A stretch of 35,319 bases of DNA from Bryobacterales bacterium (GTDB taxonomy: Bacteria > Acidobacteriota > Terriglobia > Bryobacterales > Bryobacteraceae). Shown here one piece after another: positions 8,551 through 26,384 of this stretch. The translations under genes were made by a program, and so were the position numbers. The stretch is taken from the NCBI GenBank assembly GCA_019261985.1, contig JAFAQY010000004.1, positions 1-35,319 on the forward strand. The letters are read 5' to 3'. The notes beneath the pieces were generated by a model. It had not been told where the DNA came from. It searched no databases and saw only the letters and a list, made by a program, of their open reading frames with translations. How positions within the stretch are numbered: the first letter of the stretch is position 1; the number at the start of each line of letters is the position of its first letter.

Positions 8551-11230
8551 GTCTTAAGGCCGCCATGGGATCGATCCGCGAGGCCCTGCGCGCCGGAGCG
8601 TAACCGGCCAGCAACGCCGCAGTCAGCATCGCGGCTCCTGCCGCAGCCAGCGCCAACGGATCGTTGGGCTTCGTTCCATATAAGAAAGACGTAACGAATT
8701 TCGAAGTCGCGAGCGCGATCGGGAGACCGATCGCCAGTCCGATGAAGGCCATCGCCAGTACATCCCGCAGAATCATCCGGATCACGCCTGTCCGTTGCGC
8801 TCCCAGAGCCATCCGAATCCCGATCTCATTCGTCCGTCGAGCGACGTTGTAGCTCACCGTCCCATACAAGCCAACGCAAGTGATTGCCAATGCCAGAATC
8901 GCGAACAAGCTCGAGAGCCGTGCGAAAATCCTCTCCTGGTTCGTTCGCTCGTCAATCTCCGCGGCTTCGGTCTTGATATTGGAAACCGGCACGCCGGGAT
9001 CGGCTTTGCGAACAATTTCGCGCACCGCGTTGGCATAGGTCAACGGATTGCCCGCCGTACGCAGCTCGAAGACCATTTGGCCCAGCGGTGGCCATTCGGC
9101 GCGGCTGTACAGGTAATAGATCACTGGCCCGGCATCGCGCGTCACGTCGCCATAACGCGCATCGCCGCTGATTCCGCTAATCTCCATATCCTGATCCGGG
9201 ATATTGAGGTGCTGCCCAATGGGGTTCTCGCCGGGGAAGTACGTCTTCGCGAACCGCTCATCGACCACGGCCACGGGCTGTCCGCGGTCTTCAATGTCGC
9301 GGCCGGCGAGGACCGGGATTTGCATTGTGGCCAAGAATCGTGGGCCAGCCGCCATTAGCCCAATAGAAGGCGTTTCCTTACCGCGAACCCGCAGGCTGAA
9401 ACTGGTTCTCCCGCCCCGCATCAACGACATGTTCGAGAGGCTCGCGTCGCGCACTCCGGGAATGCCTTGAAATTGGCGTTGAAGGTTCCGGTAGAAATCG
9501 GCCAACTCCGTGCCGCGATGTCCGGCCAGCCGCGCGTTGACCTCGAATAGAAGCAGATTCTCGCGATTGAAGCCAAGCTGAATGGAATTGAGGTTCGACA
9601 GCGTTCTGATGAACAGCCCTGCCGCAACCAGGACAAGCATAGCGATCGCGAGCTGCGCGGCCACCAGGAACCGAAGCGGCGCGGCTTGCCCCGCCGATTG
9701 CCTAAGGTCGCTTTTGAGCGCAGGGACCGCATTCACGCGCGTTGATTGAATCGCCGGGGCCAGCCCAAAGAGAATTCCCGTAAGCACCGAAAGTCCCGCC
9801 GCTACTCCAAGCACATGCCAATTCAACCCAGCCCGAAGAGTGAAACCTTCCTGCCCATTCGCAAGCAGCAGCGTAAGGAATCGAATACCCCACACCGCCA
9901 CCGCGATCCCAAACGTTCCACCCAGGCTGGCGAGCAAAACGCTCTCCGTCAAAAGTTGCCGGACCACGCGCCACCGCCCCGCGCCCATGCTCAGCCGCAC
10001 CGCCATTTCCCGCCGCCGCACAGTCGCCCGCGCCAAAAGCAGGTTCGCGACATTCGCGCAGGCGATCGCCAGGATCAGTGCCACAAGTATCAATAACAAG
10101 AACAGCGGCTTCGAATAGGAAAGACGAAGGCTGTCGACGCCCGTGGCTCCCGGCATCAATGCCAACTCGGGTAGGTGGGCCCGCTCATAATCGTTCGCGG
10201 CAGTGCTCAGGACCCATTCGTGGAATGCCGGCGCGAGCGCCGCTTGAGCCTGGGCCAAGCTCACGCCCGGCCGCAGTCTCGCCATCATCTCGAATCCATA
10301 GAAGTTGCGATCGAGATATTGTTGAGGCGTCCGGTACGGGTGGCCGGGAGGTTGAATCACAAGGCTCGCCCGCATCGGAACGTACAGGTCCGGCGACCCG
10401 GCCGAATCTACTCCGTAGAATTCTGGCGGTGCGACGCCCAGGATAGTGAACGGCGCGTTGTTGATCGAGATCGCGCTTCCGACCGCATTAAACGGGTCGC
10501 CGAACCGTTTCTGTGCATATCCAAAGCTGATTACCGCGCCTGTGGACGCGCGGTCGTCCTCATCGGTGAGTAGTCGTCCGGCTGCTGGAGGCACACCCAA
10601 CCCGCGAAAATATGAGCCGGAGACATATTCGATTCGGCCCATGTCCGCCTGCCCGCGAACCATCACGTTATACGGACTGAAGTCCCGGCAATAGGCGAAC
10701 AAACTTGAGAAAACGGAATTGTTCATGCCGAGAAGCTCGAACGCCGGATAAGGAAACGCGCCGCTGATGATTCCACCGCGCGGATCGGCATCGATGCGGC
10801 CGGCGGCTCCTCGAACGACCGACATGTGCACCTGGCCTACTCCGCTCGCCGGGTGGCCAAATCCCTGCCCGCGCCAATTCAGCACAACTAGTTCGCGGGG
10901 GTCCTTCACCGGCAGCGAACGCAGCAGAATCGCGTCCATGAAGCTAAAAATTGCAGTATTCGCCCCAATCCCCAACGCGAGTGATAACACCGCCAAAGCC
11001 GTGAACGCGCGGTTATTCTTAATCGCCCGCAGCGCGTAACGCAAGTCCTGGCCTAGTTGCTCAAAGAACATCCAGCCCCACATGGCGCGGCTCTCCTCCT
11101 TCCATCGCGTGATGTTGCCGAATTGCGCGGCGCCTGAAAGCGACATGTGATGCCGCATTTCTTCATCCAGGTCCCGCTCAAAGTGGCGCCGGCGGAAATA
11201 ATACGCGAGTCTTCTGAACAATTCACTCAT
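8543..11230 (-). CDS. ADOP-type FtsX/MacB permease (second of tandem)
   Basis: The 895-residue paralogue has the full two-FtsX architecture. Its first 60 residues are nearly identical to the last copy (3141-5870). Its first periplasmic segment (NWRGQGFGHPASGVGQVHMS) is instead shared with the first copy (11223-13922), and its C-terminal FtsX core resembles the third copy (5863-8550). This makes it a visible mosaic. It ends SRIDPMAALRHD. Start and stop overlap both neighbours by 8 nt. As in the other copies, no Walker motifs exist, so it cannot hydrolyse ATP alone. Any energy coupling must come from a distant ATPase or be absent. Confidence 0.9.
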   Translation of the reverse strand: MSELFRRLAYYFRRRHFERDLDEEMRHHMSLSGAAQFGNITRWKEESRAMWGWMFFEQLGQDLRYALRAIKNNRAFTALAVLSLALGIGANTAIFSFMDAILLRSLPVKDPRELVVLNWRGQGFGHPASGVGQVHMSVVRGAAGRIDADPRGGIISGAFPYPAFELLGMNNSVFSSLFAYCRDFSPYNVMVRGQADMGRIEYVSGSYFRGLGVPPAAGRLLTDEDDRASTGAVISFGYAQKRFGDPFNAVGSAISINNAPFTILGVAPPEFYGVDSAGSPDLYVPMRASLVIQPPGHPYRTPQQYLDRNFYGFEMMARLRPGVSLAQAQAALAPAFHEWVLSTAANDYERAHLPELALMPGATGVDSLRLSYSKPLFLLLILVALILAIACANVANLLLARATVRRREMAVRLSMGAGRWRVVRQLLTESVLLASLGGTFGIAVAVWGIRFLTLLLANGQEGFTLRAGLNWHVLGVAAGLSVLTGILFGLAPAIQSTRVNAVPALKSDLRQSAGQAAPLRFLVAAQLAIAMLVLVAAGLFIRTLSNLNSIQLGFNRENLLLFEVNARLAGHRGTELADFYRNLQRQFQGIPGVRDASLSNMSLMRGGRTSFSLRVRGKETPSIGLMAAGPRFLATMQIPVLAGRDIEDRGQPVAVVDERFAKTYFPGENPIGQHLNIPDQDMEISGISGDARYGDVTRDAGPVIYYLYSRAEWPPLGQMVFELRTAGNPLTYANAVREIVRKADPGVPVSNIKTEAAEIDERTNQERIFARLSSLFAILALAITCVGLYGTVSYNVARRTNEIGIRMALGAQRTGVIRMILRDVLAMAFIGLAIGLPIALATSKFVTSFLYGTKPNDPLALAAAGAAMLTAALLAGYAPARRASRIDPMAALRHD

Positions 11231-13922
11231 GTCTTAAGGCCGCCATGGGATCGATCCGCGAGGCCTTCCGCGCAGGAGCGTAACCGGCCAGAATCGCCGC
11301 GCCCAGCAGAATTACCCCGGCGGCGGTCAGCGCGCGCGGATCGTTGGGTTTCATCCCATAAAGAAACGATCCAACGAATTTTGAGGTGGCAAGGGCGGTG
11401 GGAATGCCGGCGGCGAGTCCCGCGAAGATGAGCAACAGCACCTCTCGCACGACCATCCACATCACCAGCTCCCGCTGTGCGCCCAAAGCCATTCGAATGC
11501 CGATCTCATTCGTGCGCCTGGCGACGTTGTAGCTTACCGTACCGTACAAGCCCACACACGTGATGGCGAGAGCGAGGAACGCAAATACGGTGGAAAGGCG
11601 CGCGAAGACGTTTTCTTGATTCGTCAGCTCGCCTATTTCCGCAGCCTGAGTCTTGACGTCCGATACGGGTACGCCCGGATCGGCATTGCGGACAATCTCT
11701 CGCACGCTTTGGACATACGCCAAAGGATTCCCCGTGGTCCGCAATTCGAAGGTCATTTCCACGATCGGGGGGAAACTAGACCTGTTATACAGGTAATAGA
11801 TAACCGGCGAAGAGTTGGGCCTTACATTCCCGTAGAGCGCCTTGCCGCTCACGCCAACGATCTCCAAATCGTTGTCAATAAGCTTGAGATGCTGCCCAAT
11901 AGGATTCTCGTTTGGGAAGTAAGTCTTTGCGAAGTCCTCATCCACCACAGCGACAGCTTGCCCCCGGTCCTCGATGTCGCGGCCTGCGAGAATCGGAATC
12001 TGCATGGTTTCTAGAAAGGATGGACCAACTGCCAAAAGTCCGATCACCGGCGTCGGCTTGCCGCGGACAGAAAGTGTAAAAGCCATCCGGCCGCGCATCA
12101 TCATCGAAAGGTTCGACAGGCTCGCGCTTCGAATGCCGGGAATGGATTGAAATTGCCGCCGGAGACTTGCATAGAACTGCGCGATCTCGGGATCGCTATG
12201 CCCGGCGAGCCTCGCGTTCAGCTGGAATAGGAGCAAATTCTCCCGGTTGAAGCCAACCTGGATCGATTCCAGGTTCGAGAGGGTTCGTACAAATAAGCCC
12301 GCTGCCACCAGCACCAGCGCAGAAATGGCTATTTGCGCGGCGACCAGCAACCGGGGCATCACACGGCTGCGTCCCGATTTGGAGGCGGCTCCATCCTTCA
12401 GCGCGGGCATTGCGTCCACGCGCGTGCATTGAATCGCGGGAGCGAGGCCGAATAAAATCCCTGTCAGCATCGAAAGACCGGCGGCGGCCATTAGGACGTG
12501 CCAATTCAACTCCGCGCGCAGCGTGAATCCGTCCTGGCCGTTCGCCAGGAGCAGCGTGAGAAACCGAATGCCCCAAACCGCGACTAAAATCCCGAGGAAA
12601 CCGCCTATCGAGGACAGCAGAACACTCTCGGTCAAAAGCTGGCGGATCACTCGTAGCCGGCTCGCGCCCACGCTCAGCCGCACGGCCATCTCGCGTGTTC
12701 GAGCTGTCGCGCGGGCGAGCATAAGGTTCGCAATGTTGGCGCAAGCGATCGCCAGTATCAGCCCCACCAAAGCCAGCAGGAGGAAAAGCGGTTCGGAGAA
12801 TTGGCGCCGAAGGCTATCAATGCCTGTGCGTCCCGGCTGGAGCACGAGCTCGGGAAGATTGGCTCGCTCTTCGTCGTTGGCGGCGGTGCCCGCAACCCAC
12901 TCATGAAAGACCGGCGCGAGCGCCGCCTGAGCCTGAACCAGGCTCACACCCGGGCGCAATCGCGCAACGACATGCAGCCAATAGGAGTTCTTATCCAAAT
13001 AGCGCTTCGGAGTGCTGAGGAGAGATCCCTTCGGCTCCAGTAAAAGGCTGGCGTGTATCGGCACGAATAGATCGGGAAATCCCGCCGGATCGACGCCGAA
13101 AAATTCCGGCGGTGCGACGCCGACCACCATCGCGGCGACGTTGTTGATCGAAATCTCGGCGCCGATAGCTTTCAGGGGATCGCCGAAGCGCCTTCGAGCA
13201 TACGCGAAGCCGATGACCGCGGCCACGGGGGCTCCTGTGCGATCGTCTTCGTCAAGCAGCGGCCGCCCGGCCGGTGGAACTACGCCGAGGCCGCGGAAGT
13301 AATCGCCCGAAACAAGATCGACGCGCGCCATCTCGGCTTGTCCGCGGACCTTCACATTGAAGGAACCGAATTCGCGATAGTAGCCGAACATGGTGGAGAA
13401 AGGAGAGCCGTTTGCCCGGAGCGTCTCGAATGCCGCGTAAGGGAAAATGCCGCTGACGATGCCGCCACGAGGGTCAGGCTCGATTGAACCGGCGGCGACC
13501 CGAACCACTGACATGTTCACTTGGCCAACTCCGCCGGCGGGATGGCCAAATGCGAGACCGCGCCAGTTCAGCACCACCAGCGACCCCGGATCTTGCACCG
13601 GCAACGATCGCAACAGAATCGCGTCCATAAAGCTGAAAATTGCAGTATTCGCCCCAATTCCCAACGCGAGTGATAACACCGCCAGAGCCGTAAACGAGCG
13701 GTTATTGTTCATCGCCCGGACGGCATAGCGCAAATCCAGGCCTAGCTGTTCAAAGAACGTCCATCCCCACACGGCCCGGCTCTCCTCCTTCCATCGGGTT
13801 ACGTTCCCGAATCGCGCTGCGCCGGAGAGCTCCAGATGTTGCCGCATCTCTTCGTCCAGCTCCGCTTCGAACTGGCGGCGGCGGAAATAATAAACCATCC
13901 GGCGCAGCGTTTCGCGGATCAT
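11223..13922 (-). CDS. ADOP-type FtsX/MacB permease (first of tandem, directly after padR)
   Basis: The 899-residue product begins MIRETLRRMVYYFRRRQFEA, the most divergent prefix of the four, but keeps RWKEESRAVWGW and the helix ALAVLSLALGIGANTAIFSF. It then follows the same MacB periplasmic-FtsX-periplasmic-FtsX order and ends ASRIDPMAALRHE. Its ATG overlaps the padR TGA in the classic ATGA arrangement (13919-13922), which ties translation of the whole permease series to the regulator. The copy is closest to the second one in the first periplasmic domain. It belongs in the inner membrane with large periplasmic domains. The ligand is unknown. Confidence 0.9.
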   Translation of the reverse strand: MIRETLRRMVYYFRRRQFEAELDEEMRQHLELSGAARFGNVTRWKEESRAVWGWTFFEQLGLDLRYAVRAMNNNRSFTALAVLSLALGIGANTAIFSFMDAILLRSLPVQDPGSLVVLNWRGLAFGHPAGGVGQVNMSVVRVAAGSIEPDPRGGIVSGIFPYAAFETLRANGSPFSTMFGYYREFGSFNVKVRGQAEMARVDLVSGDYFRGLGVVPPAGRPLLDEDDRTGAPVAAVIGFAYARRRFGDPLKAIGAEISINNVAAMVVGVAPPEFFGVDPAGFPDLFVPIHASLLLEPKGSLLSTPKRYLDKNSYWLHVVARLRPGVSLVQAQAALAPVFHEWVAGTAANDEERANLPELVLQPGRTGIDSLRRQFSEPLFLLLALVGLILAIACANIANLMLARATARTREMAVRLSVGASRLRVIRQLLTESVLLSSIGGFLGILVAVWGIRFLTLLLANGQDGFTLRAELNWHVLMAAAGLSMLTGILFGLAPAIQCTRVDAMPALKDGAASKSGRSRVMPRLLVAAQIAISALVLVAAGLFVRTLSNLESIQVGFNRENLLLFQLNARLAGHSDPEIAQFYASLRRQFQSIPGIRSASLSNLSMMMRGRMAFTLSVRGKPTPVIGLLAVGPSFLETMQIPILAGRDIEDRGQAVAVVDEDFAKTYFPNENPIGQHLKLIDNDLEIVGVSGKALYGNVRPNSSPVIYYLYNRSSFPPIVEMTFELRTTGNPLAYVQSVREIVRNADPGVPVSDVKTQAAEIGELTNQENVFARLSTVFAFLALAITCVGLYGTVSYNVARRTNEIGIRMALGAQRELVMWMVVREVLLLIFAGLAAGIPTALATSKFVGSFLYGMKPNDPRALTAAGVILLGAAILAGYAPARKASRIDPMAALRHE

Positions 13923-14251
13923 GCGGGTTGAATTACGCGTGCGATGGCACCCATCACGCGCTCGAACTCGGCCAATTCCGCTGCAAGCTGTTTCCGCCCC
14001 GCCGGCGTCAACTTATAAAACCGCGCGCGGCGATTGTTCTCCGATTGCTTCCACTCGCCGCTAACCCATCCCTTTATCAGCATGCGTTGCAAGGCCGGGT
14101 AAAGCGACCCTTCTTCCACCCGCAACACATCGCCGGAAGTCTGTTGTATATGCTGCGCGATTCCATAACCATGCAGAGGTCCCATCCGCATCAGGGTTTT
14201 GAGAATCAGCATGTACAGCGTCCCCGGAGGTATTTCGGCTCGCACTTCCAT
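13919..14251 (-). CDS. PadR-family transcriptional regulator
   Basis: This 110-residue winged-helix repressor of the small PadR type starts MEVRAEIPPGTLYMLILKTL. It shows the family hallmark GPLHGYGIAQHIQ (about 24-36) and the wing/helix motif EEGSLYPALQRMLIKGW (about 46-62), followed by ARFYKLTPAGRKQL and a short C-terminal dimerisation helix. The frame stays open to about 14539, but the upstream part reads through a palindromic repeat and does not look like protein. The ATG at 14251 gives the normal family length. A promoter sits directly before it with only 6 nt between the -10 and the ATG, so a leaderless mRNA is likely. The stop overlaps the first permease start. It probably represses its own operon in response to an unknown ligand. 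Confidence 0.92.
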   Translation of the reverse strand: MEVRAEIPPGTLYMLILKTLMRMGPLHGYGIAQHIQQTSGDVLRVEEGSLYPALQRMLIKGWVSGEWKQSENNRRARFYKLTPAGRKQLAAELAEFERVMGAIARVIQPA

Positions 14252-14286
14252 AGGAAGACTATACAATAGCCTACCTATGGAAGCAA
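14246..14286 (-). promoter_or_regulatory. padR operon promoter with nested 37-bp dyad (candidate PadR operator)
   Basis: On the minus strand, TTGCTT (14286-14281) and TATAGT (14263-14258) are separated by exactly 17 nt, a good sigma70-type promoter. The start codon follows 6 nt after the -10. The same stretch is a dyad centred on 14264: outer arms TTCCATAGG (14246-14254) and CCTATGGAA (14274-14282), and inner arms CTAT (14259-14262) and ATAG (14266-14269). The dyad covers the -10, part of the spacer and the start codon, the expected place for an autorepressor. Binding by this PadR is inferred. Confidence 0.6.
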
Positions 14287-14317
14287 TCCCTATCTTGAAA
14301 AAAGGCGGAGCATCGAA

Positions 14318-14426
14318 GTGGGGCAGGTTGCCAACCTGCGGCGGGTTGCTTAACCCGCCCGGCAGGGTGTGCGCAAAGCCGGCCAGCCCGATTAGCAATC
14401 GCGCGCAGGATAGCATCCTGCCCCAC
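14318..14426. repeat. 109-bp composite palindromic repeat, copy bracketing the permease operon (upstream side)
   Basis: This copy has the same length and the same perfect terminal arms (GTGGGGCAGG and CCTGCCCCAC) as the copy at 3022-3130. Its end palindromes match that copy in direct orientation. The inner modules (a GCGGGTT-type palindrome and a GCGCGATT-type palindrome) are in the opposite order and align better after reverse-complementing. It lies 32 bp beyond the padR promoter's -35. The remaining bases up to 14477 contain no gene; GAGGAGG is present but no ORF follows. Confidence 0.85.
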
Positions 14427-14477
14427 ATATTAGACCTGGGGTGAGGAGGTAAACTTCGCTCCCTGACTGATTGCCGA

Positions 14478-15869
14478 CTATCTCTCGGCCGGTTCGCCCG
14501 CCGTCTCCAGCACGATCTGCCAGAGCAGCTCGACTCCATCGTCGAGGGACTTCGTCGCGATGCGTTCGTCAGTGCCGTGGATGCGGCTCTCGCCAGGTTC
14601 GCGGAGCATCAGCGGAACGCCGTACACGGGCATGCCGCGGGAGCGAAGGTAATTGCTATCGGTGGCGGCGCGAGACATGAAAGGCAGCACCACGGCGTCG
14701 CGGGGATAGATCCGGGCGATCACTTTTTCCATAGCCCGGTACAGCGTAGTCATGACCGGGCTGGGGTCTGCTGATGGTAATTGCGGAGCCGGCGCGAATG
14801 TTATCTCGACGGAATTGTCGTTCACAACTTGCCGCAAGCGCGCCAATACGTCTTCGCGAGTGTCCGAAGGCATCCGCCGCACATCCAGCAGCGCTGGAGC
14901 AACACTGGGAATCACGTTTGCATTGTTGCCGGTTCCGGGCAGGACGGTGGGTGAAATGGTGGTGCGGAGCATCGCATCCAAGTCCGGGTCAGTTTTACGA
15001 ATCTGGGCCGCGGCATCCTTCGCAGTGGCCGGATTTTCGAGACGCGGCAGCAGCGGCGCGAGCCAATCGTAATCCGAAAGTTTCGATAGGCCTCGGAAGT
15101 AACGCCGGGTTGTCCCGTTCAAGTGCACCGGCTCCTCGGCGTGCGCAATGCGGCTGATCGCATCCGATAAGTGCTCGATCGCGTTGTTGCCGCTCGGCAA
15201 AGCGCTATGGCCAGCCGTTCCGCGAGCGGTTAGCACCACCCGCGTGGGTAGTTTTTCGAGGGTCTGGATCTGGAACACGTGCGTTCCGTCCTTGGTGTCA
15301 AAAATCGAGCCGCCTTCGTTCAACGCGAACTCCGCATCGATCTTAGGCCAGGCGTTTTGAACCAGCCACTGGATGCCCGTCGATCCGTTCTCTTCATCGG
15401 CTTCCGAGACCAGAATCAGATCGCGTCCCAACTTGAGGTTGCGCCGCTTGATCTCTACCATCACGGCCATTTCGGCCGCCAGCAGGCTCTTCGCATCCAA
15501 CGAGCCGCGCCCATATATATAACCATTGCGGAGTTCGGCGCCAAACGGGTTCACGGTCCACTGTTTATCCGCTGGAACGACATCGCTGTGGGCGATCAGC
15601 ATCAGCGGCCGTCCTTTGCCGCTTCCTTTCAGCCGGGCCACGAAGTTCAAGCGTTTGGGGTCGCCGCCCAGCAACTCGCCGGATATGCCGAAAGCCTCTA
15701 CGGTTTGCTTAAGATATTGCGCTACTTGGGTTTCGTTACCCGGAGGGTTGGACGTGTCGAGCCGTACCAAGTCGGTCAGGTACTGGCGAGTCCGGTCGCT
15801 CAGAGAACGATTGTCCTCCGCTGCAATGGCAGGCAGGAGGAAACACAACAGCGCGCAGACAATGCGCAT
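14478..15869 (-). CDS. Secreted M20-family metallopeptidase (carboxypeptidase/deacylase-like)
   Basis: The 463-residue zinc hydrolase of the M20/M25/M40 clan has a signal peptide (about 1-17, ending AIAA), so it acts outside the cytoplasm. Metal and catalytic residues are in place: His94 and Asp96 in LIAHSDVVPAD, bridging Asp125 in GRGSLDAKS, catalytic Glu159 and metal Glu160 in SEADEENGS, Glu185 in NEGG, and a C-terminal His in ESRIHGTDE. His221 in TAGHSALP marks the lid/dimer domain. Length is normal for carboxypeptidase-PS-like M20 members. It likely cleaves peptides or N-acyl amino acids; the exact substrate is not readable. It stands alone on this strand, divergent from the response regulator. 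Confidence 0.92.
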   Translation of the reverse strand: MRIVCALLCFLLPAIAAEDNRSLSDRTRQYLTDLVRLDTSNPPGNETQVAQYLKQTVEAFGISGELLGGDPKRLNFVARLKGSGKGRPLMLIAHSDVVPADKQWTVNPFGAELRNGYIYGRGSLDAKSLLAAEMAVMVEIKRRNLKLGRDLILVSEADEENGSTGIQWLVQNAWPKIDAEFALNEGGSIFDTKDGTHVFQIQTLEKLPTRVVLTARGTAGHSALPSGNNAIEHLSDAISRIAHAEEPVHLNGTTRRYFRGLSKLSDYDWLAPLLPRLENPATAKDAAAQIRKTDPDLDAMLRTTISPTVLPGTGNNANVIPSVAPALLDVRRMPSDTREDVLARLRQVVNDNSVEITFAPAPQLPSADPSPVMTTLYRAMEKVIARIYPRDAVVLPFMSRAATDSNYLRSRGMPVYGVPLMLREPGESRIHGTDERIATKSLDDGVELLWQIVLETAGEPAER

Positions 15870-18342: not shown

Positions 18343-21300
18343 ATGCAAAGTGCTCTGGCGTATTGCAGGATTCACCCCGCGATCGGAATCGCACGTATTG
18401 GAAATAGTCCCGCGGAATATTTTCTCGGACCAGAATCCGTAGACTATAATTCAATTCCAGCAGGGGGTTACAAGGATCCAGGCGAGGCGGCTGCGCCGTG
18501 CCTGCCGCGAATAAAACGTCAGGCTGTACGGTTCCGAGTCTACGGCTTTGACTCCGCCGGTGCCTGCCTCGGCGAGATTACTACGGAATCGGCTAAATCC
18601 ATGGAATGGACGGTCGAACTCGCTAACACCAAGGCTTCGTACCGCCGCACGGCACTTGCCGACAATCGCGACCCAGAACCCCGGCGCGCGCGCCTGCGGA
18701 ACAAAGGCATCCCTGCGGATCAACGGTGGAAATTGAACATAACCCCACATGCGCGCACTCTAATTGGACCAAGTCAAACGGCTCGATTTGACGATGGCCG
18801 GTTCATGGATATTCCGGTGAGCCTGGGCGAGATTCAAACCGACGCGCAAGGACGGCTGATCGTGTTGGGCGGGTCCGGGAAGGCCGGCGCCTACGATGCG
18901 GCAAAGCGGTTAAAGACTTCCACGGACAACGATGGTTGGTACGACGACGTTTCCGATGGGCCTCTCACGGCTACGGTAACCTTGGCCGATGGACGCATCA
19001 TAATGGCCGCTCCCGCTTGGGTAGTCGTCGCGCATCCGGATTTTGCACCCGCTCTACGGCATACTGTCACTGAGTACGATGTATTCCTGGATTTAGCGCG
19101 CCGCAGAGGTGTGGCGCGGCCGAGTGCACGGCCTTCTTTCGCGCGTGAAATTTATCCGCTTCTCGACCGGATCGCTGGAAAGCAGTGGCTTGACCGGCGG
19201 GCACTGATGAGCTTCGGAAATATTCAAACGCAATGGAGGACTCTGTCGCAAAATGTCGCCGGTGCCAGGCAACAGCGTGAGGCCGTGTTTGCCGACGTGT
19301 CAAGACATTACATGCATGGCAAAGACGATGCTGCACAAGATAGTTGGCTCCAACTGACCCCGACCCAATACCAAATCCTAAAGCGGTGGTCGGAGGGTGA
19401 ATTTGAGTCCGACTGGCAGCCGGACGCGTCTGAGCGGTCTGAGTCCATTCCTTTCACGCCCCTACCAGACGATCTCGACCGGGCCGCGCTGGACTCGTAC
19501 GCGGGCGGCATTCTTTCCGCGCATCTCCTGGACGGCCAGGCTCCCGATATCTTCCTGCCAGGCGAACTTTTGCGGCTGGATCACGGCAAACTAGCCGCCG
19601 GCGATCTCACGAAAGGTATGCCTTGTCCGTGGCAAGCCGGTTTTTTGAACGACGCCGCGGCGTGCCCGAAAGAGGTTCTTGGCCCAAAAACGTATAAGGA
19701 CTTATGCGCCATAGAAAATCAGATCGCGGCGCTGCCCAAGGACGGAACCGGCGAAGAAGTATCGCGTGTTTTGAGGGAACGGCGGGACTCGCTGTGGCTG
19801 ACGCGCGAGACATGGGCCCGGGGATTGGGCGACGAGTTTCCGGCCCGCGCGGAAAGGCTTGTCCACGAGTGGCCACACCTCGGATTCGTTGCGTGCGGGA
19901 ATCGCGAGGGACGGAGGTTTCGGTGGGCTGAGAGGCCGTGTTTTGTTGAAACCGAGCGCAGCGAGTACCTCGGCACGATGGCGGAGTACTTCCACCGGCT
20001 GGTGAATATCGAATGTAATCGCGATTTTACGGCGAAGGCTATGGAGCTGGCTCTGCAGATGCTTGGCGATGCCAAATTCAGCTCGGATCCGAAGTATGCC
20101 CCATTCCGCTACACGCCCGAGGACTTCGACGCTCGCTTGGACCAAATCTACGCCGATCTGGTGGAGAACACGATGTTCAAGCCGGTACGGTGGGAATCGG
20201 GGGAAATTACCTGGGATGCGATCGTCGATTATGACGAGGACGACGACCCCGTTTGGCGGGAGCGCGTTTTTCACATCGGCCGCGCCTCCGACCGGGCCAT
20301 CGCCGAACGTTTCCGGCAGATGGCGCCCCTAAATTTAACCGACGGCGCTTGGTTGCAAAATACAGTCACCGCCGGCACAATGGACGGCGTCAAATCCCGT
20401 CTAGCCGCAATATGGTTTGACGAAGCCGGCAACGGCCGCGCCGAATTAAATCACAGTAACGTCTATGACACGCTGCTCCGGAGCCTGAACATATACATGC
20501 CTCCGGTCACATCGCGGGATTTTATCGAGCAGGATTTTGTTCCCTCGGCATTTGAAAGTCCGGTATTCCAGCTCTGCGTGGGGTTGTTCCCGCAGCGGTT
20601 CCTGCCGGAACTGCTTGGCTTGACGTTGTATGTCGAGTGGGAAGCCACGCCGACTATGGAACCGATCGCGTTCATGATGGCGGCCCGGCATATCGACCCG
20701 CAGTACTACCGTATGCACGCCGCAATCGATAACATAAACGTCGGCCATGGCGCCCAGGCGAAAGAGGCGATTAAGCTTTACCTCCACCAAAAGCGCGAAG
20801 AAGGCGGGGATTCCGTCCAGCAGGAGCACTGGCAGCGGATTTGGCGCGGCTATGTAGCATGGGCAACGCTAGGCAACGGCGCCAATGAAGTCATCGAGCG
20901 CTTGATGACGGTCGATAGGAAGCAGATTCATTTGCGCTCCTCGCTGCTTCTCGCCTCCGACATTCTGCCGCCGTTTCTAATGGCGCTTCGCGCCGGCAAA
21001 GACGCTATCTCGACGTTCTTGAATGAAAAGCTGAGCTCCCACACGCAGTCCTGGCTCAAAGCCTGGCATGTTCATGAACCTCCTTCCGCCGAATTGCTCC
21101 AGGGGGTCCGCGCCGACCTGAACGTCTGGCTTAAAGCCGGCATTGATGAAAAGGACCGTTTCAAGAACGTCTCGCTGTCGGCTGAAACTCGGAAGCTGCT
21201 AAAGCTCAAACCGAAGCATGGCGTCGATCTTATCGACCTGAATCGAAGCCTGCTGGAGGACGCGTATCCCAAGGGAATTGCGCGCCGGGCCGCTTTCCCC

Positions 21301-22077
21301 GACATCAAGGCGCATTATGCCGCAAAATTCGCCGACTTGGTCCGGAAGAAGGCGCCGCTCGCGCTGCAATCGCACCGCCGCGTGCCTTGGGTAATGAAAG
21401 CCTTTCACGGAAAACCCGAGGACATGCTGCAAACGCTTATCGATCGCGGTCTGATCGATATTGAGCATCCGGCCCACAGTCCTTTTTTCACGAAACTCGA
21501 GTTCAGCGGTCCGATGTATAAAGCCTTCACCGAAGAAGAAAAGAACGTCATGATGGATTCGATCGAAGCGCTGCGCACGGGCGGAATACACATCGTGCAA
21601 GCGGAACCGGAAACATCGGCGGATGCGGAAAATGCCATGCTCGATCTGGTAAAGCGGCGTTCCAATGAGATGGCGTACGTCTGGGTTCAAACCGTAGCGC
21701 CACATCAAAACGGCGCTCCGGCGAGTATGCCGGAATGGGTGGAAGGCCGACCTATTAAGCTGATGGAAGTGTTTGCCCGCACGCCGTCGCTGGTGAACCC
21801 CGGCGATCCCAGCCACTCCCGGTTTTTCGAGATGATCTCTCCCTCGGGCCGGATGGCGGATCTCTTCGCCGCGGAGGAGGTGGCGACCGTCGAGGCATGG
21901 ATCGCACAAGGAGCGAGAGTTCCGGACGGCGCGGCGCATGAAAAGGCGATCCCGATCGCCGCCGCTGCCGCCGCCGGGGCCGACAAAAACGTTGGGGCGG
22001 TTTCGGAGCATAGCGATCCACCTCAGGGAAGCTTCGGAGATAAGCGCTGGCGCATCGGAATGGGAGCGGTTCACTGA
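18343..22077 (+). CDS. LodA/GoxA-like oxidase fused to a heme-oxygenase-like diiron oxidase (HDO) domain
   Basis: The protein has 1244 residues in at least three parts. Residues 1-545 match the LodA/GoxA (CTQ amino-acid oxidase) family: IHPAIGIARIGNSPAEYFLGPE at 10-31, PAWVVVAHPDFAP, LDRAALDSYAGG (379-389), MPCPWQAGF with Trp430, and FVETERSEY near 535-542. Typical LodA proteins end about here. Residues about 545-830 look like an iron-containing redox enzyme (PF14518-like HDO): WFDEAGNG (Glu694), His704 ten residues on, YVEWE (Glu765), and His792-x3-Asp796 with His802. Residues about 955-1190 form a tail with a twice-repeated motif. The Cys expected in the family's ALExCxGG motif reads Tyr386 here, so a normal Cys-Trp cofactor is doubtful. 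No lodB maturase gene is adjacent. No signal peptide is seen. The start has a good Shine-Dalgarno; family alignments are from memory. Confidence 0.8.
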   Translation: MQSALAYCRIHPAIGIARIGNSPAEYFLGPESVDYNSIPAGGYKDPGEAAAPCLPRIKRQAVRFRVYGFDSAGACLGEITTESAKSMEWTVELANTKASYRRTALADNRDPEPRRARLRNKGIPADQRWKLNITPHARTLIGPSQTARFDDGRFMDIPVSLGEIQTDAQGRLIVLGGSGKAGAYDAAKRLKTSTDNDGWYDDVSDGPLTATVTLADGRIIMAAPAWVVVAHPDFAPALRHTVTEYDVFLDLARRRGVARPSARPSFAREIYPLLDRIAGKQWLDRRALMSFGNIQTQWRTLSQNVAGARQQREAVFADVSRHYMHGKDDAAQDSWLQLTPTQYQILKRWSEGEFESDWQPDASERSESIPFTPLPDDLDRAALDSYAGGILSAHLLDGQAPDIFLPGELLRLDHGKLAAGDLTKGMPCPWQAGFLNDAAACPKEVLGPKTYKDLCAIENQIAALPKDGTGEEVSRVLRERRDSLWLTRETWARGLGDEFPARAERLVHEWPHLGFVACGNREGRRFRWAERPCFVETERSEYLGTMAEYFHRLVNIECNRDFTAKAMELALQMLGDAKFSSDPKYAPFRYTPEDFDARLDQIYADLVENTMFKPVRWESGEITWDAIVDYDEDDDPVWRERVFHIGRASDRAIAERFRQMAPLNLTDGAWLQNTVTAGTMDGVKSRLAAIWFDEAGNGRAELNHSNVYDTLLRSLNIYMPPVTSRDFIEQDFVPSAFESPVFQLCVGLFPQRFLPELLGLTLYVEWEATPTMEPIAFMMAARHIDPQYYRMHAAIDNINVGHGAQAKEAIKLYLHQKREEGGDSVQQEHWQRIWRGYVAWATLGNGANEVIERLMTVDRKQIHLRSSLLLASDILPPFLMALRAGKDAISTFLNEKLSSHTQSWLKAWHVHEPPSAELLQGVRADLNVWLKAGIDEKDRFKNVSLSAETRKLLKLKPKHGVDLIDLNRSLLEDAYPKGIARRAAFPDIKAHYAAKFADLVRKKAPLALQSHRRVPWVMKAFHGKPEDMLQTLIDRGLIDIEHPAHSPFFTKLEFSGPMYKAFTEEEKNVMMDSIEALRTGGIHIVQAEPETSADAENAMLDLVKRRSNEMAYVWVQTVAPHQNGAPASMPEWVEGRPIKLMEVFARTPSLVNPGDPSHSRFFEMISPSGRMADLFAAEEVATVEAWIAQGARVPDGAAHEKAIPIAAAAAAGADKNVGAVSEHSDPPQGSFGDKRWRIGMGAVH

Positions 22078-22092
22078 CACCCCCGCCGACGC

Positions 22093-23301
22093 ATGGACAT
22101 CTGCTACGTATCACATTGTGTTCCGTGGCCGCCCGACAAAGGCGAGCGAATCCGCGCATTTAATTCAGTAAACCAGCTGGTGCGGCGCCATCGGGTTCAT
22201 GTAGCCTGTTTGGCGCGAGACCCCAAGGAGGCCCACGCGGATTCGGAGCTGCGACGCCGGTGCGCATCCGTTCATGTGGAAGTATTGAACGCTCCCCGGG
22301 CATTTGCGCGCGCCCTGGTCCGGTTTGCGTCAGGACGTTGCTTCTCTACCGCCTTTTATTGGAATCCGGCGCTCGACCGGCACATTCGGAAGGTCGCGGC
22401 CGATTGTCCCATAGCCGCGGTAATCCTGCTCTCTTCAGGAATGGCTGTATACGCTCCGGAAGCAATTCCCTTCATTGCCGATTGGGGAGATGTCGATTCG
22501 GAGAAGTGGCTTCAATACTCCCGCACCCGCTTTCCTGGATTTCTCTACGCAGCCGAGAGCCGGCGCGTGCGCAAAACCGAGTGCGAGTACGCATTCCGGT
22601 CCAGGCGCGCTTTCTTTACAACACCCAACGAGCTTAACCTTTTTCGCGAGATCGCGCCGGAGGCGCCCGCCGGCTGCGCCGGTAACGGCGTGGATTTCGA
22701 ATTTTTCGATCCACGCCTGCCATTCAATCTTGCGAACCTTCGTAACCGGCAGTTTCTGGTATTTGTGGGAGTGCTCAATTATTTTCCGAACAGCGACGGA
22801 GTCTGCCGGTTCGCGGAAACCGTATTTCCCGAACTGCGGCGGAGGAATCCTCAACTTGAGCTTTTCTTGGTTGGCCGAAATCCGGCGGAAAACGTACTAC
22901 GGCTGGCAAGCAAACCCGGTATAACAGTCACGGGTACTGTCGCGGACGTCCGCCCTTATCTGGCGGCTGCGCGCGGCGTTATAGCGCCGCTGCAGATCGC
23001 CCGAGGGATTCAGAACAAGGTGCTGGAGGCGCTGGCCATGGGCAAAACGGTTCTAGCTTCGAAGCAAGTATGCGCGACATTTGCGCCGCAGCTTCCGGCA
23101 GGTATCGTGCCCTGCGAATCCGTAGAAAGCTACGTTCGATCTGTCGAGGCGCTGCCATCACCGGCTTCGTCGAATGCGAATATTCGCGACGCCGCCCAAG
23201 CGCGTTTTTCCTGGTCCGAAAACCTGGCGCCGATCATGGCGGAACTGGATGCCATTGAGCAGTCGGGCAAAAGGCCACGCGTAACCGGCGCCTGGATTTA
23301 G
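22093..23301 (+). CDS. Glycosyltransferase, PEP-CTERM/XrtA-associated type (GT4-like)
   Basis: The 402-residue GT-B enzyme begins MDICYVSHCVPWPPDKGERIRAFN, which closely follows the N-terminus of the sugar transferases (TIGR03087-like) found in exosortase/EPS loci. Later features are FVGVLNYFPNSDGVCRFAE (acceptor/donor domain boundary), ELFLVGRNP, GTVADVRPYLAAARGVIAPLQIARGIQNKVLEALAMGK (donor-binding helix with the Glu of the family) and a C-terminal helix. It probably transfers a nucleotide-sugar to a polysaccharide precursor in the cytoplasm. It starts 15 nt after the LodA-HDO stop with no promoter between, so the two are likely co-transcribed. Its stop overlaps that of the convergent A-T-GNAT gene by 4 nt. 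No exosortase or other EPS genes are in view. Confidence 0.85.
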   Translation: MDICYVSHCVPWPPDKGERIRAFNSVNQLVRRHRVHVACLARDPKEAHADSELRRRCASVHVEVLNAPRAFARALVRFASGRCFSTAFYWNPALDRHIRKVAADCPIAAVILLSSGMAVYAPEAIPFIADWGDVDSEKWLQYSRTRFPGFLYAAESRRVRKTECEYAFRSRRAFFTTPNELNLFREIAPEAPAGCAGNGVDFEFFDPRLPFNLANLRNRQFLVFVGVLNYFPNSDGVCRFAETVFPELRRRNPQLELFLVGRNPAENVLRLASKPGITVTGTVADVRPYLAAARGVIAPLQIARGIQNKVLEALAMGKTVLASKQVCATFAPQLPAGIVPCESVESYVRSVEALPSPASSNANIRDAAQARFSWSENLAPIMAELDAIEQSGKRPRVTGAWI

Positions 23302-26300
23302 AGGTTCAGATCGCCGTCCACTCCGGACGGCCACCAGGACCCCGCGGAACAGATGGCTTCCAGCTCTGAGTTCGGCGCGTGGTACCAATACGTCGAACTG
23401 TGCGTCTTGCGGGTGCGCGGGTCGAGGACTCTCGCCATACCGGCAAACGATACCGTGCGCCCCAGATGCTCCAACTGCGAGCGGCGCAATACATAGGGGT
23501 TTTGCGTTTTTAGCTGGCGATTCAGCGAGGGGTGAAACCCGAACACCTCTAGGACCGAAGCCTTCCTTGCGGAAACAAACTCGAACGCGCCGTTCATCAA
23601 TGTAGGGAACACCTCAGGGTTTTCGCGATCGTAGAAGAGATCGGTCAGAATGAAATGCCCCGGAGCAGTGTTAATGGGCTCGCGCAGCGCGGCGTAGCCC
23701 GTTAATTTGCCCTTGTCCCGGCAAGCCAGCATATACGACTTTCCGAGAAGACGCGGCGAGTTCCCGTGTCGCCACTGCAAGAACGACAAGGTCCGCTCCG
23801 TGGTGACTGCGTAGCGGCCCTTTAGCCGCTCCCATAGCTCGTCGAACTCGGCGCCACATCGGTCCACTTGCGTAATTTGGAGCGGCCGGCATTTGAAGCG
23901 AATCTCCATGCGGCGGAAGCCCCCTCGCAGGGCCGCCGATGCGCCACCTGAAATTCCGAACGCCAAAGGCGCGGAAACCGCCAGGATGCTTTGGGCCGGC
24001 CAGGAGGCGACAATACGACGCCATAGTTCGGGCGCTGCGCTTTGCGCCGTCTTCCATTGGACCAAGGCTTTGAAATCGAGGATCCAAAGCAAACGCTGGT
24101 CGAAATCCTGGAGCGGGATGGGCTTCATACCGATGCTGCTGCTGCTATGCAGCGCGCTGGTAACCGCGTTAGCCGTAGTGTTCAAGAGAAAACGGTCTTG
24201 GCCCCAGTTCAAGAATTCAGAAAGTAAACCTAAACCGGCCCTTCCGTAACCGGGATCGACTGCCCATGTAGTGGGCGCGCTTGCCGGGTAGCTCTGGCCA
24301 CCGATCCAGAGCCGCACCGGGACAAGCCCGTGAAACCCCACGATCTCTCCGGATTCATTCTCCAACACCCAACCAAAAGGATCATCCGCTTTGCGGAACG
24401 GGTTCTTCAACCAGCGGTGGGCGCAAAGCTTCTCAAAATCCTCGAATGAGCAATCGGCGTAGCCCGGAAATGCGCGCGAGCACACTTGGAAAATACCGCG
24501 GATGTCATCGAAAGACGCAACCCGGCATCCTTCCGTCAGGTGTCGTGTTGAAGCGCCAGGACTGCCGGACGGCCGCGGCCGTAGAATTCTGGCGATCTCC
24601 TCGATCGTGAAAGCTCCTAGCAACCGGTCGAGGGGTATCCGGATTTTGAAATCCCGCTCCAACCGGATCAGTACCTGCGTGGCGAGTAAAGAGTCGCCGC
24701 CGCAGTCGAAGAAATCGTCGTCAATTCCAAAGCGCCTCTCTTTGAGGACCTCCGCCCAAAGATCGGCAATGCGCCGTTCGAGGGCGTCGCGCGGCTCTGT
24801 GAATGACCTCTGCTCCGGAGCCGGCCGTAGCGAAGCCAGCTTCTTGCGATCGACCTTGCCGTTCGGCGAGAGCGGCAGACCCTCCACGAAAATGAATTCC
24901 GTTGGGATCATCGATGGCGGGAGTTTCAGCCGCAGGAACGCGCGTAACTCGCGATCGGTCACCTGGCTTCCCGAAATAGGAACCACATATGCGGCGAGGA
25001 TGGTATCTCCGCCTCTGTCTTCGGCGGCTGCGGCCGCGGCTTCCACCGACGAGTGTCCCGCAATGGCCTTTTCAACCTCCGCGAGTTCGATTCTGACTCC
25101 ATGAACCTTAACCTGGTCGTCTCTGCGTCCGATGAAATCGATATTTCCATCGTGCAGAAAGCGGCACAGATCGCCTGTCCGGTACATGCGGGCTTCGTAG
25201 GCTGAATTGAAAGGATTGGGCAGGAACCGTTCCGCCGTCAGATCCGGCCGGTTGAGATAGCCGCGGCCCAGACAGATTCCGCCAATGTAGAGCTCACCCG
25301 GCACACCAGGAGGAACAGGGTTCAGATCAGGATCGAGAATGTAAAGTTCGGTGTTGTCGACCGGTCCCCCAATCGGAACCGTATCGCGGCTGTCGCCCCG
25401 GCGGCATGGCCACCGGGTGACGCCGATCGAGGCCTCGGTGGGCCCGTAGGAGTTGCAGACTTCCGACGAAAGCCGTTCCAGAAAGCGATCTTGAAGCTTG
25501 GGCGTTAGAATTTCCCCGCCGCACATCACATGCCGGAGAGCGCTTAAATCGGGCATTTCCTCGAGATCGAGAAACGAACGCATTAAAGAGGGCACAAACT
25601 GCGCGATTGTGACCCGTTGCGATGCCATCAGGCTGGCAAGATAAGCGGGATCGTATTGACGGTCGCCATCGGCCAGGACGAGGCGCGCGCCGCTGATCAA
25701 AGGAAGAAATAGCTCCCACGCCGAGACATCGAAGGTAAGCGGCGCCTTTTTCAATACGACATCGCGCGGCGTGGCTTCAAAGGTGTTGCGCATCCACACG
25801 AGCCAGTTCACCACTCCGCGATGGGGCACCATCACACCCTTCGGCTGTCCCGTGGATCCCGAAGTGTAGATCACATAGACCAAGTCCGCGTTCGTGACGG
25901 CGGCCTGGAGGTCGCCGTCTTCTTCGCCGGCGCCCGCTTCGGCTTTAACATCGAGGACCAAAGCGCCACCGGCCTGCAACCGCTGGCTTCGCGTCAGAAC
26001 CACCGCGATCGGGCCGTCGGAAATGAGGAAAGACAGCCGCTCTTGTGGAAGGCGCGGGTCAAGAGGAACATACGCTGCTCCCGCCTTCAGAATGGCGAGG
26101 ATTCCCACGATCATCTCGAGCGACCGCGCCATGGAGACCCCCACAAGAGATCCCACTCCGATGCCACGCCGCTGAAGCACGCGAGCCAGGCGGTTTGCTC
26201 GCCGATTCAACTCGCCGTAGGTAAGAGTTTCGCCTTCATAAAACACGGCGACGGACTGAGGGGTGCGGGCAGCCCAGGCTTCTATGATCTGGTGAAGACA

Positions 26301-26384
26301 GAGGTTTCGGTCCTGCTCCCTGGAGCCGGGGAGCGATGCGGCCGACAGGCGGTCCGGAGCAATCCGATTACTGGCAGTGCTCAA
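23298..26384 (-). CDS. Single-module NRPS-like protein: adenylation - carrier - GNAT-like domain
   Basis: The protein has 1028 residues. The adenylation domain (about 30-520) shows A3 YTSGSTGQPKG (173-183), A4 FDVSAWE with Asp219, A5 NSYGPTEAS, A7 YRTGDL, A8 GRRDDQVKVHGVRIEL and A10 NGKVDRKKL with Lys510. The carrier domain (about 530-602) has the phosphopantetheine Ser565 in DCGGDSLLA. Residues about 618-1028 form a GNAT-like acyltransferase region, possibly two repeats (IVGFHGLVPV; LTGYAALREP). No condensation or thioesterase domain exists. By alignment to GrsA the specificity code reads D-V-W-Q-V-C-S-I-G-K; I know no exact match. The start is TTG at 26384, supported by GGAGG 6-10 nt upstream. 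Likely role: activate an amino acid, load it on the carrier and pass it to an amine or hydroxyl acceptor. Confidence 0.88.
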   Translation of the reverse strand: MSTASNRIAPDRLSAASLPGSREQDRNLCLHQIIEAWAARTPQSVAVFYEGETLTYGELNRRANRLARVLQRRGIGVGSLVGVSMARSLEMIVGILAILKAGAAYVPLDPRLPQERLSFLISDGPIAVVLTRSQRLQAGGALVLDVKAEAGAGEEDGDLQAAVTNADLVYVIYTSGSTGQPKGVMVPHRGVVNWLVWMRNTFEATPRDVVLKKAPLTFDVSAWELFLPLISGARLVLADGDRQYDPAYLASLMASQRVTIAQFVPSLMRSFLDLEEMPDLSALRHVMCGGEILTPKLQDRFLERLSSEVCNSYGPTEASIGVTRWPCRRGDSRDTVPIGGPVDNTELYILDPDLNPVPPGVPGELYIGGICLGRGYLNRPDLTAERFLPNPFNSAYEARMYRTGDLCRFLHDGNIDFIGRRDDQVKVHGVRIELAEVEKAIAGHSSVEAAAAAAEDRGGDTILAAYVVPISGSQVTDRELRAFLRLKLPPSMIPTEFIFVEGLPLSPNGKVDRKKLASLRPAPEQRSFTEPRDALERRIADLWAEVLKERRFGIDDDFFDCGGDSLLATQVLIRLERDFKIRIPLDRLLGAFTIEEIARILRPRPSGSPGASTRHLTEGCRVASFDDIRGIFQVCSRAFPGYADCSFEDFEKLCAHRWLKNPFRKADDPFGWVLENESGEIVGFHGLVPVRLWIGGQSYPASAPTTWAVDPGYGRAGLGLLSEFLNWGQDRFLLNTTANAVTSALHSSSSIGMKPIPLQDFDQRLLWILDFKALVQWKTAQSAAPELWRRIVASWPAQSILAVSAPLAFGISGGASAALRGGFRRMEIRFKCRPLQITQVDRCGAEFDELWERLKGRYAVTTERTLSFLQWRHGNSPRLLGKSYMLACRDKGKLTGYAALREPINTAPGHFILTDLFYDRENPEVFPTLMNGAFEFVSARKASVLEVFGFHPSLNRQLKTQNPYVLRRSQLEHLGRTVSFAGMARVLDPRTRKTHSSTYWYHAPNSELEAICSAGSWWPSGVDGDLNL

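Follow-up and report, generated by a model that had tools for sequence, protein, structure and literature searches.

The gene at positions 18343..22077 (plus strand) of a 35,319-nucleotide stretch of DNA from a Bryobacterales bacterium (Acidobacteriota; GenBank assembly GCA_019261985.1, contig JAFAQY010000004.1, positions 1 to 35,319; hereafter the window) encodes a protein of 1244 residues in which a LodA/GoxA-type quinoprotein oxidase domain is fused to a heme-oxygenase-like diiron oxygenase (HDO) module. The LodA part lacks the residues that form the cysteine tryptophylquinone (CTQ) cofactor of LodA, and the HDO part has a complete predicted set of iron ligands. We consider the protein to be, probably, a LodA pseudo-oxidase scaffold joined to a diiron oxygenase that is probably working and resembles N-oxygenases.

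As originally predicted, the fusion is a single chain. It is read from one open reading frame whose codon usage matches that of its neighbors, with matches to PF17990, PF18417 and PF14518, and is a real gene comprising a LodA/GoxA-type domain (residues 1-545), an HDO module (546-865) and a C-terminal region. All features of the gene lie on the plus strand. The LodA_N domain (residues 11-229; 18373..19029) scored well above the cut-off (PF17990, E 1.1e-64, 218.8 bits) and occurs only once in the source genome. In contrast, LodA_C, the eroded catalytic half (residues 330-545; 19330..19977), gave a partial PF18417 match of 42.5 bits, which is above the cut-off, versus 103-108 bits in four other fusions scanned, and the whole protein reached 231 bits with the GoxA model, for which the cut-off is 750. 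The HDO module (19978..20937) consists of a linker and the diiron domain, with the PF14518 match at 20311-20850. It is followed by about 120 residues confined to the window copy (approximately 866-984; 20938..21294), where the other 11 fusion rows are almost entirely gapped, and by a C-terminal domain (985-1244; 21295..22074) ending in GMGAVH. A Pfam scan at E 0.01 gave no family for residues 871-1244; the model of the C-terminal domain was of low confidence (pLDDT 64.5), and a Foldseek search with it listed HDO proteins and weak matches. Third-position GC is 0.58 in 18343-19062, the LodA_N part, compared to 0.64-0.75 in the rest of the gene and 0.62-0.72 in the measured neighbors, possibly reflecting a separate history of that part.

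To assign the cofactor columns, the intact fusion of Massilia frigida (L031) was aligned to LodA (3weu, 726 amino acids), and 2ymw was also aligned. The published CTQ residues of LodA are Cys516 and Trp581 (PMC4417212). Asp512 and Cys516 fall within PWQAD(512)FFNC(516), and Trp581 corresponds to the second W in YWWPPQSP of the Massilia protein (family motif WWPxQRP); GoxA structures titled D678A, N and E agree with the same Asp (LodA Asp512, GoxA Asp678). At this site, the window protein reads PWQAGFLNDAAACPKEV. Gly433 (19639..19641) replaces the Asp beside the cofactor, and Asp437 stands at the position of the CTQ Cys, followed by a deletion of WWPAQ that removes the CTQ Trp (19651..19665). 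Asp437 pairs with Cys516 in two alignments, and in a larger alignment the Cys column is a gap in the window protein. When the Asp and Cys columns were scored by fixed spacing from PWQ, a column present in 103 of the 105 LodA rows (which are not independent, one genus supplying many of them), each residue was kept in 102/103 rows, the window protein being the sole exception. The Trp motif was found in 101/103 rows; it is missing from the window protein and from L117, whose sequence stops at its locus end. Thus, with the Cys516 and Trp581 sites lost, the alignments indicate that CTQ cannot form at its normal place. The argument rests on Cys and Trp, because changes of GoxA Asp678 are reported not to abolish CTQ formation (PMC7876137).

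The loss of the CTQ Cys had been anticipated in the original prediction, but at the wrong position. The CTQ Cys was sought in an ALExCxGG motif, where the window protein has Tyr386 (19498..19500), whereas the LodA alignment places it in PWQADFxxC. Tyr386 corresponds to LodA Cys442, which is not a cofactor residue; across the 105 LodA rows this column holds C in 90, A, T, S, G, M or L in 12, Y in the window protein and a gap in 2. Similarly, Trp430 of CPWQAGF (19630..19632), taken to be the CTQ Trp, aligns with LodA Trp509, a Trp in all 103 of the 105 rows with this column, and the true Trp581 lies in the WWPxQRP motif that the window protein has deleted.

The losses are unevenly distributed over the LodA part. 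Of the columns with a conservation of 95% or more across the other 98 complete LodA rows, the window protein kept 30/30 in LodA_N (residues 11-240), 1/2 in the middle segment and 10/18 in LodA_C (residues 331-520; LodA_N versus LodA_C, Fisher p 1.2e-4), whereas the minimum LodA_C retention among the other 98 rows was 0.79. The eight positions lost are F, P, G and E of the FxPGxE block, which contains the PGIE motif of the LodA family, and Asp, Cys, Trp and Pro around the cofactor. Since the losses sit in LodA_C and the LodA_N columns are intact, this local erosion points to a pseudo-oxidase rather than to an evenly decaying gene, as judged from conservation. The non-catalytic scaffold, one of the options of the original prediction, is therefore the best supported of them, although on the loss of Asp512, Cys516, Trp581 and PGIE and not on the grounds given originally, and scaffolding itself is a role that we infer. 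A compensated frameshift was considered as the cause of the PGIE loss and rejected: allowing frameshifts in a profile alignment improved the score by only 2.0 bits, a gain that 5 of 60 synonymous recodings equaled. Translated in frame +1, 19497-19640 contains AAFFPRISW in place of the GGPFYPGIE of the family; a compensated frameshift may have taken place here, but its signal is not significant.

The HDO module matched the folds of RohS, SznF and HrmI, so that residues 545-830 belong to the HDO fold, as had been proposed. The match of the module profile to SznF is weak (E 0.003), and in this alignment seven window residues fall on SznF positions 189, 215, 225, 281, 311, 315 and 318. The predicted ligands are Asp667 (20341..20343; SznF Glu189 column), Glu694 (20422..20424; Glu215), His704 (20452..20454; His225), Glu765 (20635..20637; Glu281), His792 (20716..20718; His311), Asp796 (20728..20730; Asp315) and His802 (20746..20748; His318). 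All of them except Asp667 had been named in advance as candidate diiron ligands. We take Glu189 to be the remaining iron ligand of SznF. Alanine at any of the other six positions (215, 225, 281, 311, 315 or 318) is reported to abolish SznF activity (PMC11705231). The seven predicted ligand residues, 3 His and 4 carboxylates, were invariant in 18/18 rows (12 fusions and 6 standalone HDO proteins), and Glu694, Glu765, His704, His792, Asp796 and His802 were kept in 14/14 fusion rows. Thus, by alignment, a ligand set of three His and three or four carboxylates is present in the window protein. According to a 2026 review, the seven-ligand set (3H/4C) was first seen in SznF and is estimated to occur in about a quarter of HDOs, and HrmI is listed there as 3H/3C (PMC13108848).

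The six standalone HDO relatives each carry a second, weaker HDO copy, and the three with annotated surroundings adjoin genes including those for a monooxygenase, ketoacyl synthase, acyl-CoA dehydrogenase and carbamoyltransferase, which suggests a role in small-molecule biosynthesis. A C-terminal GMGxxH is found in 10/12 fusions and the terminal His in 12/12, and neither is present in the 6 standalone proteins. Such GMGxxH ends are seen, for example, in L023 (7669-11484), L031 (9950-13669) and L121 (9968-13378).

Taken together, these features are best explained by the pseudo-oxidase scaffold with a probably working diiron half. The window protein presumably descends from an ordinary bifunctional LodA-HDO fusion that was accompanied by lodB, the gene for the flavoprotein partner of LodA. 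It would make no tryptophylquinone and would carry out no CTQ-dependent amine oxidation. The HDO domain would bind two irons, activate O2 directly and oxidize a small substrate, with N-oxygenation of an amine or amino acid as the likeliest reaction. The dead LodA domain would be retained in a scaffolding role, which might consist of dimer contacts or substrate presentation. An amine-containing substrate is proposed because the closest solved folds are N-oxygenases, an analogy that serves as a lead. The two-step amino-acid oxidation proposed originally is conceivable for intact fusions elsewhere, but in the window copy it would not proceed by a CTQ mechanism.

Several observations weigh against this interpretation. 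In each of the six segments, the window protein has a lower mean identity to nine other fusions than these have to one another: 0.46 versus 0.48 in LodA_N, 0.30 versus 0.35 in the middle segment, 0.31 versus 0.44 in LodA_C, 0.29 versus 0.35 in the linker, 0.42 versus 0.51 in the HDO domain and 0.23 versus 0.33 in the C-terminal domain. General decay is accordingly possible, because the entire chain is divergent. Furthermore, the first Bradyrhizobium fusion (L071) has a LodA_C identity of 0.32 and has nevertheless kept its CTQ residues, and loss of the Asp would not by itself exclude CTQ, given the tolerated GoxA changes. A search of the other 236 family genomes at E 1e-15 gave no relative of residues 520-1244. 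A similar fold does not guarantee a similar ligand set, since HrmI, a near fold match, is 3H/3C, and both scaffolding and N-oxygenation are inferences. Finally, no neighboring gene indicates a substrate: the downstream gene, 15 bases away on the same strand, encodes a PEP-CTERM/XrtA-type glycosyltransferase, and the upstream gene an alpha/beta hydrolase.

The strongest competitor, although unlikely, is that the gene is a relic being lost, with the whole fusion under relaxed constraint and the HDO ligands intact only because the decay is recent. The reduced identity in all six segments, the lack of relatives of the HDO half in family genomes, the long end branch of the window protein in the LodA tree (1.49 versus a median of 0.48) and the loss of an almost invariant Cys near the C-terminus of the fusions are all in line with this. 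However, 1244 codons without a stop and with normal usage, the retention of all seven ligand residues and the GMGxxH tail, and the 30/30 conserved LodA_N columns speak for a gene that is kept.

In all, the analysis covered 16 fusions: the window protein and L023, L024, L027-L033, L035, L045, L071 (two), L121 and L134. The hosts are G286 (L023, L024), Streptomyces (L027, L028, L029, L030, L032, L035, L045), Massilia frigida (L031), a metagenome-assembled genome of Acidobacteriaceae (L033), Bradyrhizobium campsiandrae (L071, both copies), Paraburkholderia caribensis, on a plasmid (L121), and G839 (L134). All 15 others, including L134 and L121, keep Asp512, Cys516 and Trp581. The sampling was capped, in that 80 of 125 relatives matched by two peptide patterns were kept; as both patterns lie in the LodA part, fusions with a LodA motif broken as in the window protein may escape it. 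The HDO-module profile matched 4/396 sampled genomes of the phylum, 3 of which carry fusions. Among the titles and beginnings of abstracts listed by literature searches outside most subscription journals and bioRxiv, no title concerned a LodA-HDO fusion or a LodA protein lacking the CTQ residues, and we came across no study of what the fusions do.

That LodA and HDO share a chain in Actinomycetota, Pseudomonadota and Acidobacteriota fits a further, rather improbable alternative, whereby LodA of the family produces H2O2 beside a diiron site that uses or removes it and the window copy has kept only the peroxide- or O2-using half. A catalase-like domain in other published LodA fusions (PMC4417212, Table 3) is in keeping with such coupling. 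Nevertheless, the peroxo state of SznF is described as forming with O2 without the need for substrate (PMC13108848).

Very large proteins of 1774-1927 amino acids are encoded upstream of three fusions (L024 61-5385, L031 2573-8086, L033 2260-8043); two have a weak multicopper-oxidase match, one barely above the cut-off and one below it, and the third is without a Pfam match. Saccharothrix L067 (9740-16837) has two consecutive LodA genes followed by one lodB. In addition, a 1668-residue frame of Planctomycetota (L076 6557-11560) joins ferritin-like, sorbosone-dehydrogenase-like and LodA segments and represents another fusion of an iron protein with LodA.

The original prediction noted no LodB near the window gene. 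The LodB/GoxB flavoprotein was found neither in the window nor in the source genome (98.8% complete) by protein and profile searches. A LodB query gave a best match of 29 bits in the source genome, whereas in eight LodA-bearing genomes the best matches ranged from 166 to 329 bits, and an eight-row LodB profile gave only partial matches of at most 52 bits, versus 301, 368 and 561 bits in three control genomes (the 561-bit genome, G839, is itself represented in the profile). In contrast, for 12 of the 13 other fusions without a contig end cutting the downstream side (L032 and L033 were left out for this reason), lodB adjoins the fusion, with scores of 173-412 bits against a profile built from two LodB proteins. 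One small gene lies between the two in one Bradyrhizobium case, and lodB is upstream of the fusion in L134. The exception, L023, has no lodB within the stretch examined; the same genome has lodB beside its second fusion.

These data bear on the proposal that the HDO domain is an in-chain maturase that took the place of LodB, modifying Trp430 with Tyr386 or Cys428. The failure to find LodB, the O2-activating diiron domain in the same chain and the HDOs described as acting on protein-derived Tyr or Trp (CtCADD/NePabS; PMC13108848) would agree with it. It is nonetheless highly improbable, given that Trp430 is not the CTQ Trp, that the CTQ Trp, Cys and Asp are gone from the window protein, and that lodB co-occurs with the family, a finding that the original prediction had named in advance as one that would refute it. 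Because the other fusions keep the CTQ residues and nearly all adjoin lodB, the evidence argues against the diiron domain of the LodA-HDO family having arisen as a substitute for LodB. Equally far-fetched is a rebuilt LodA pocket, in which the diiron domain would oxidize or cross-link Tyr386, Cys428, Trp430 and Cys441 into a protein-derived cofactor other than CTQ and independent of a flavoprotein.

As to the origin of the gene, the LodA part of the window protein grouped weakly in the LodA tree with a standalone LodA (G259, beside lodB) and not with the main fusions (94/82 and 88/84 in two trees). However, forcing the window protein together with the main fusions was not rejected by the approximately unbiased (AU) test (p 0.064 and 0.116). 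In the HDO tree, the fusions formed one group relative to the 6 standalone proteins (89/97 and 96/97). The LodA part of one Bradyrhizobium fusion paired with a standalone LodA (100/100), and adding it to the window-plus-main group was rejected (AU p 1e-44). With a single HDO group and the Bradyrhizobium LodA part placed apart, the trees thus indicate at least two events in which a LodA part was joined or swapped. The window gene may have been gained horizontally, as residues 520-1244 have no relative in the family genomes. The Bradyrhizobium campsiandrae locus (L071 4821-15332) carries two different LodA-HDO fusions in tandem, with lodB after each and LodA parts in distant branches.

Elsewhere in the window, four successive genes on the minus strand (3141-13922) encode proteins of 895-909 amino acids, the one examined being a MacB/FtsX-like permease, and a PadR-type regulator (padR_acidobact) is encoded at 13919-14539. 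A stand-alone adenylation-plus-carrier protein of 1028 amino acids, with a weak acetyltransferase-like match behind, is encoded at 23298-26384 on the minus strand, convergent with the glycosyltransferase gene.

The original prediction held the system to be undescribed, but the LodA-HDO architecture was already known: five LodA proteins with pfam14518, of 985-1413 amino acids, were listed in 2015 (Campillo-Brocal et al., PMC4417212, Table 3). What the window copy adds is a LodA part without Asp, Cys and Trp beside intact HDO ligands. It thereby separates the two halves and can serve to probe the diiron half free of quinone chemistry; what the LodA and diiron parts do as a pair can be probed in the intact relatives, which have lodB. 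Like the window protein, the proteins listed in 2015 combine LodA and Haem_oxygenas_2 in one chain, with the same Pfam pair; that paper, however, puts the extra domain in the N-terminal region, whereas it follows LodA in the window protein and the 15 other fusions. The fusions of Streptomyces, Massilia, Bradyrhizobium, Paraburkholderia and other Acidobacteriota share with the window protein the domain order, the HDO ligand columns and the terminal His, but differ in their retained CTQ residues and neighboring lodB. From LodA and GoxA themselves the window protein is set apart by the missing CTQ residues, the LodB not found and the low GoxA score. With SznF, RohS and HrmI it has the HDO fold in common, and all ligand columns of SznF are filled. 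Compared to SznF, the window protein has Asp instead of Glu at the first ligand column and three additional residues between Asp796 and His802, and it has no Pfam match for the cupin domain of SznF.

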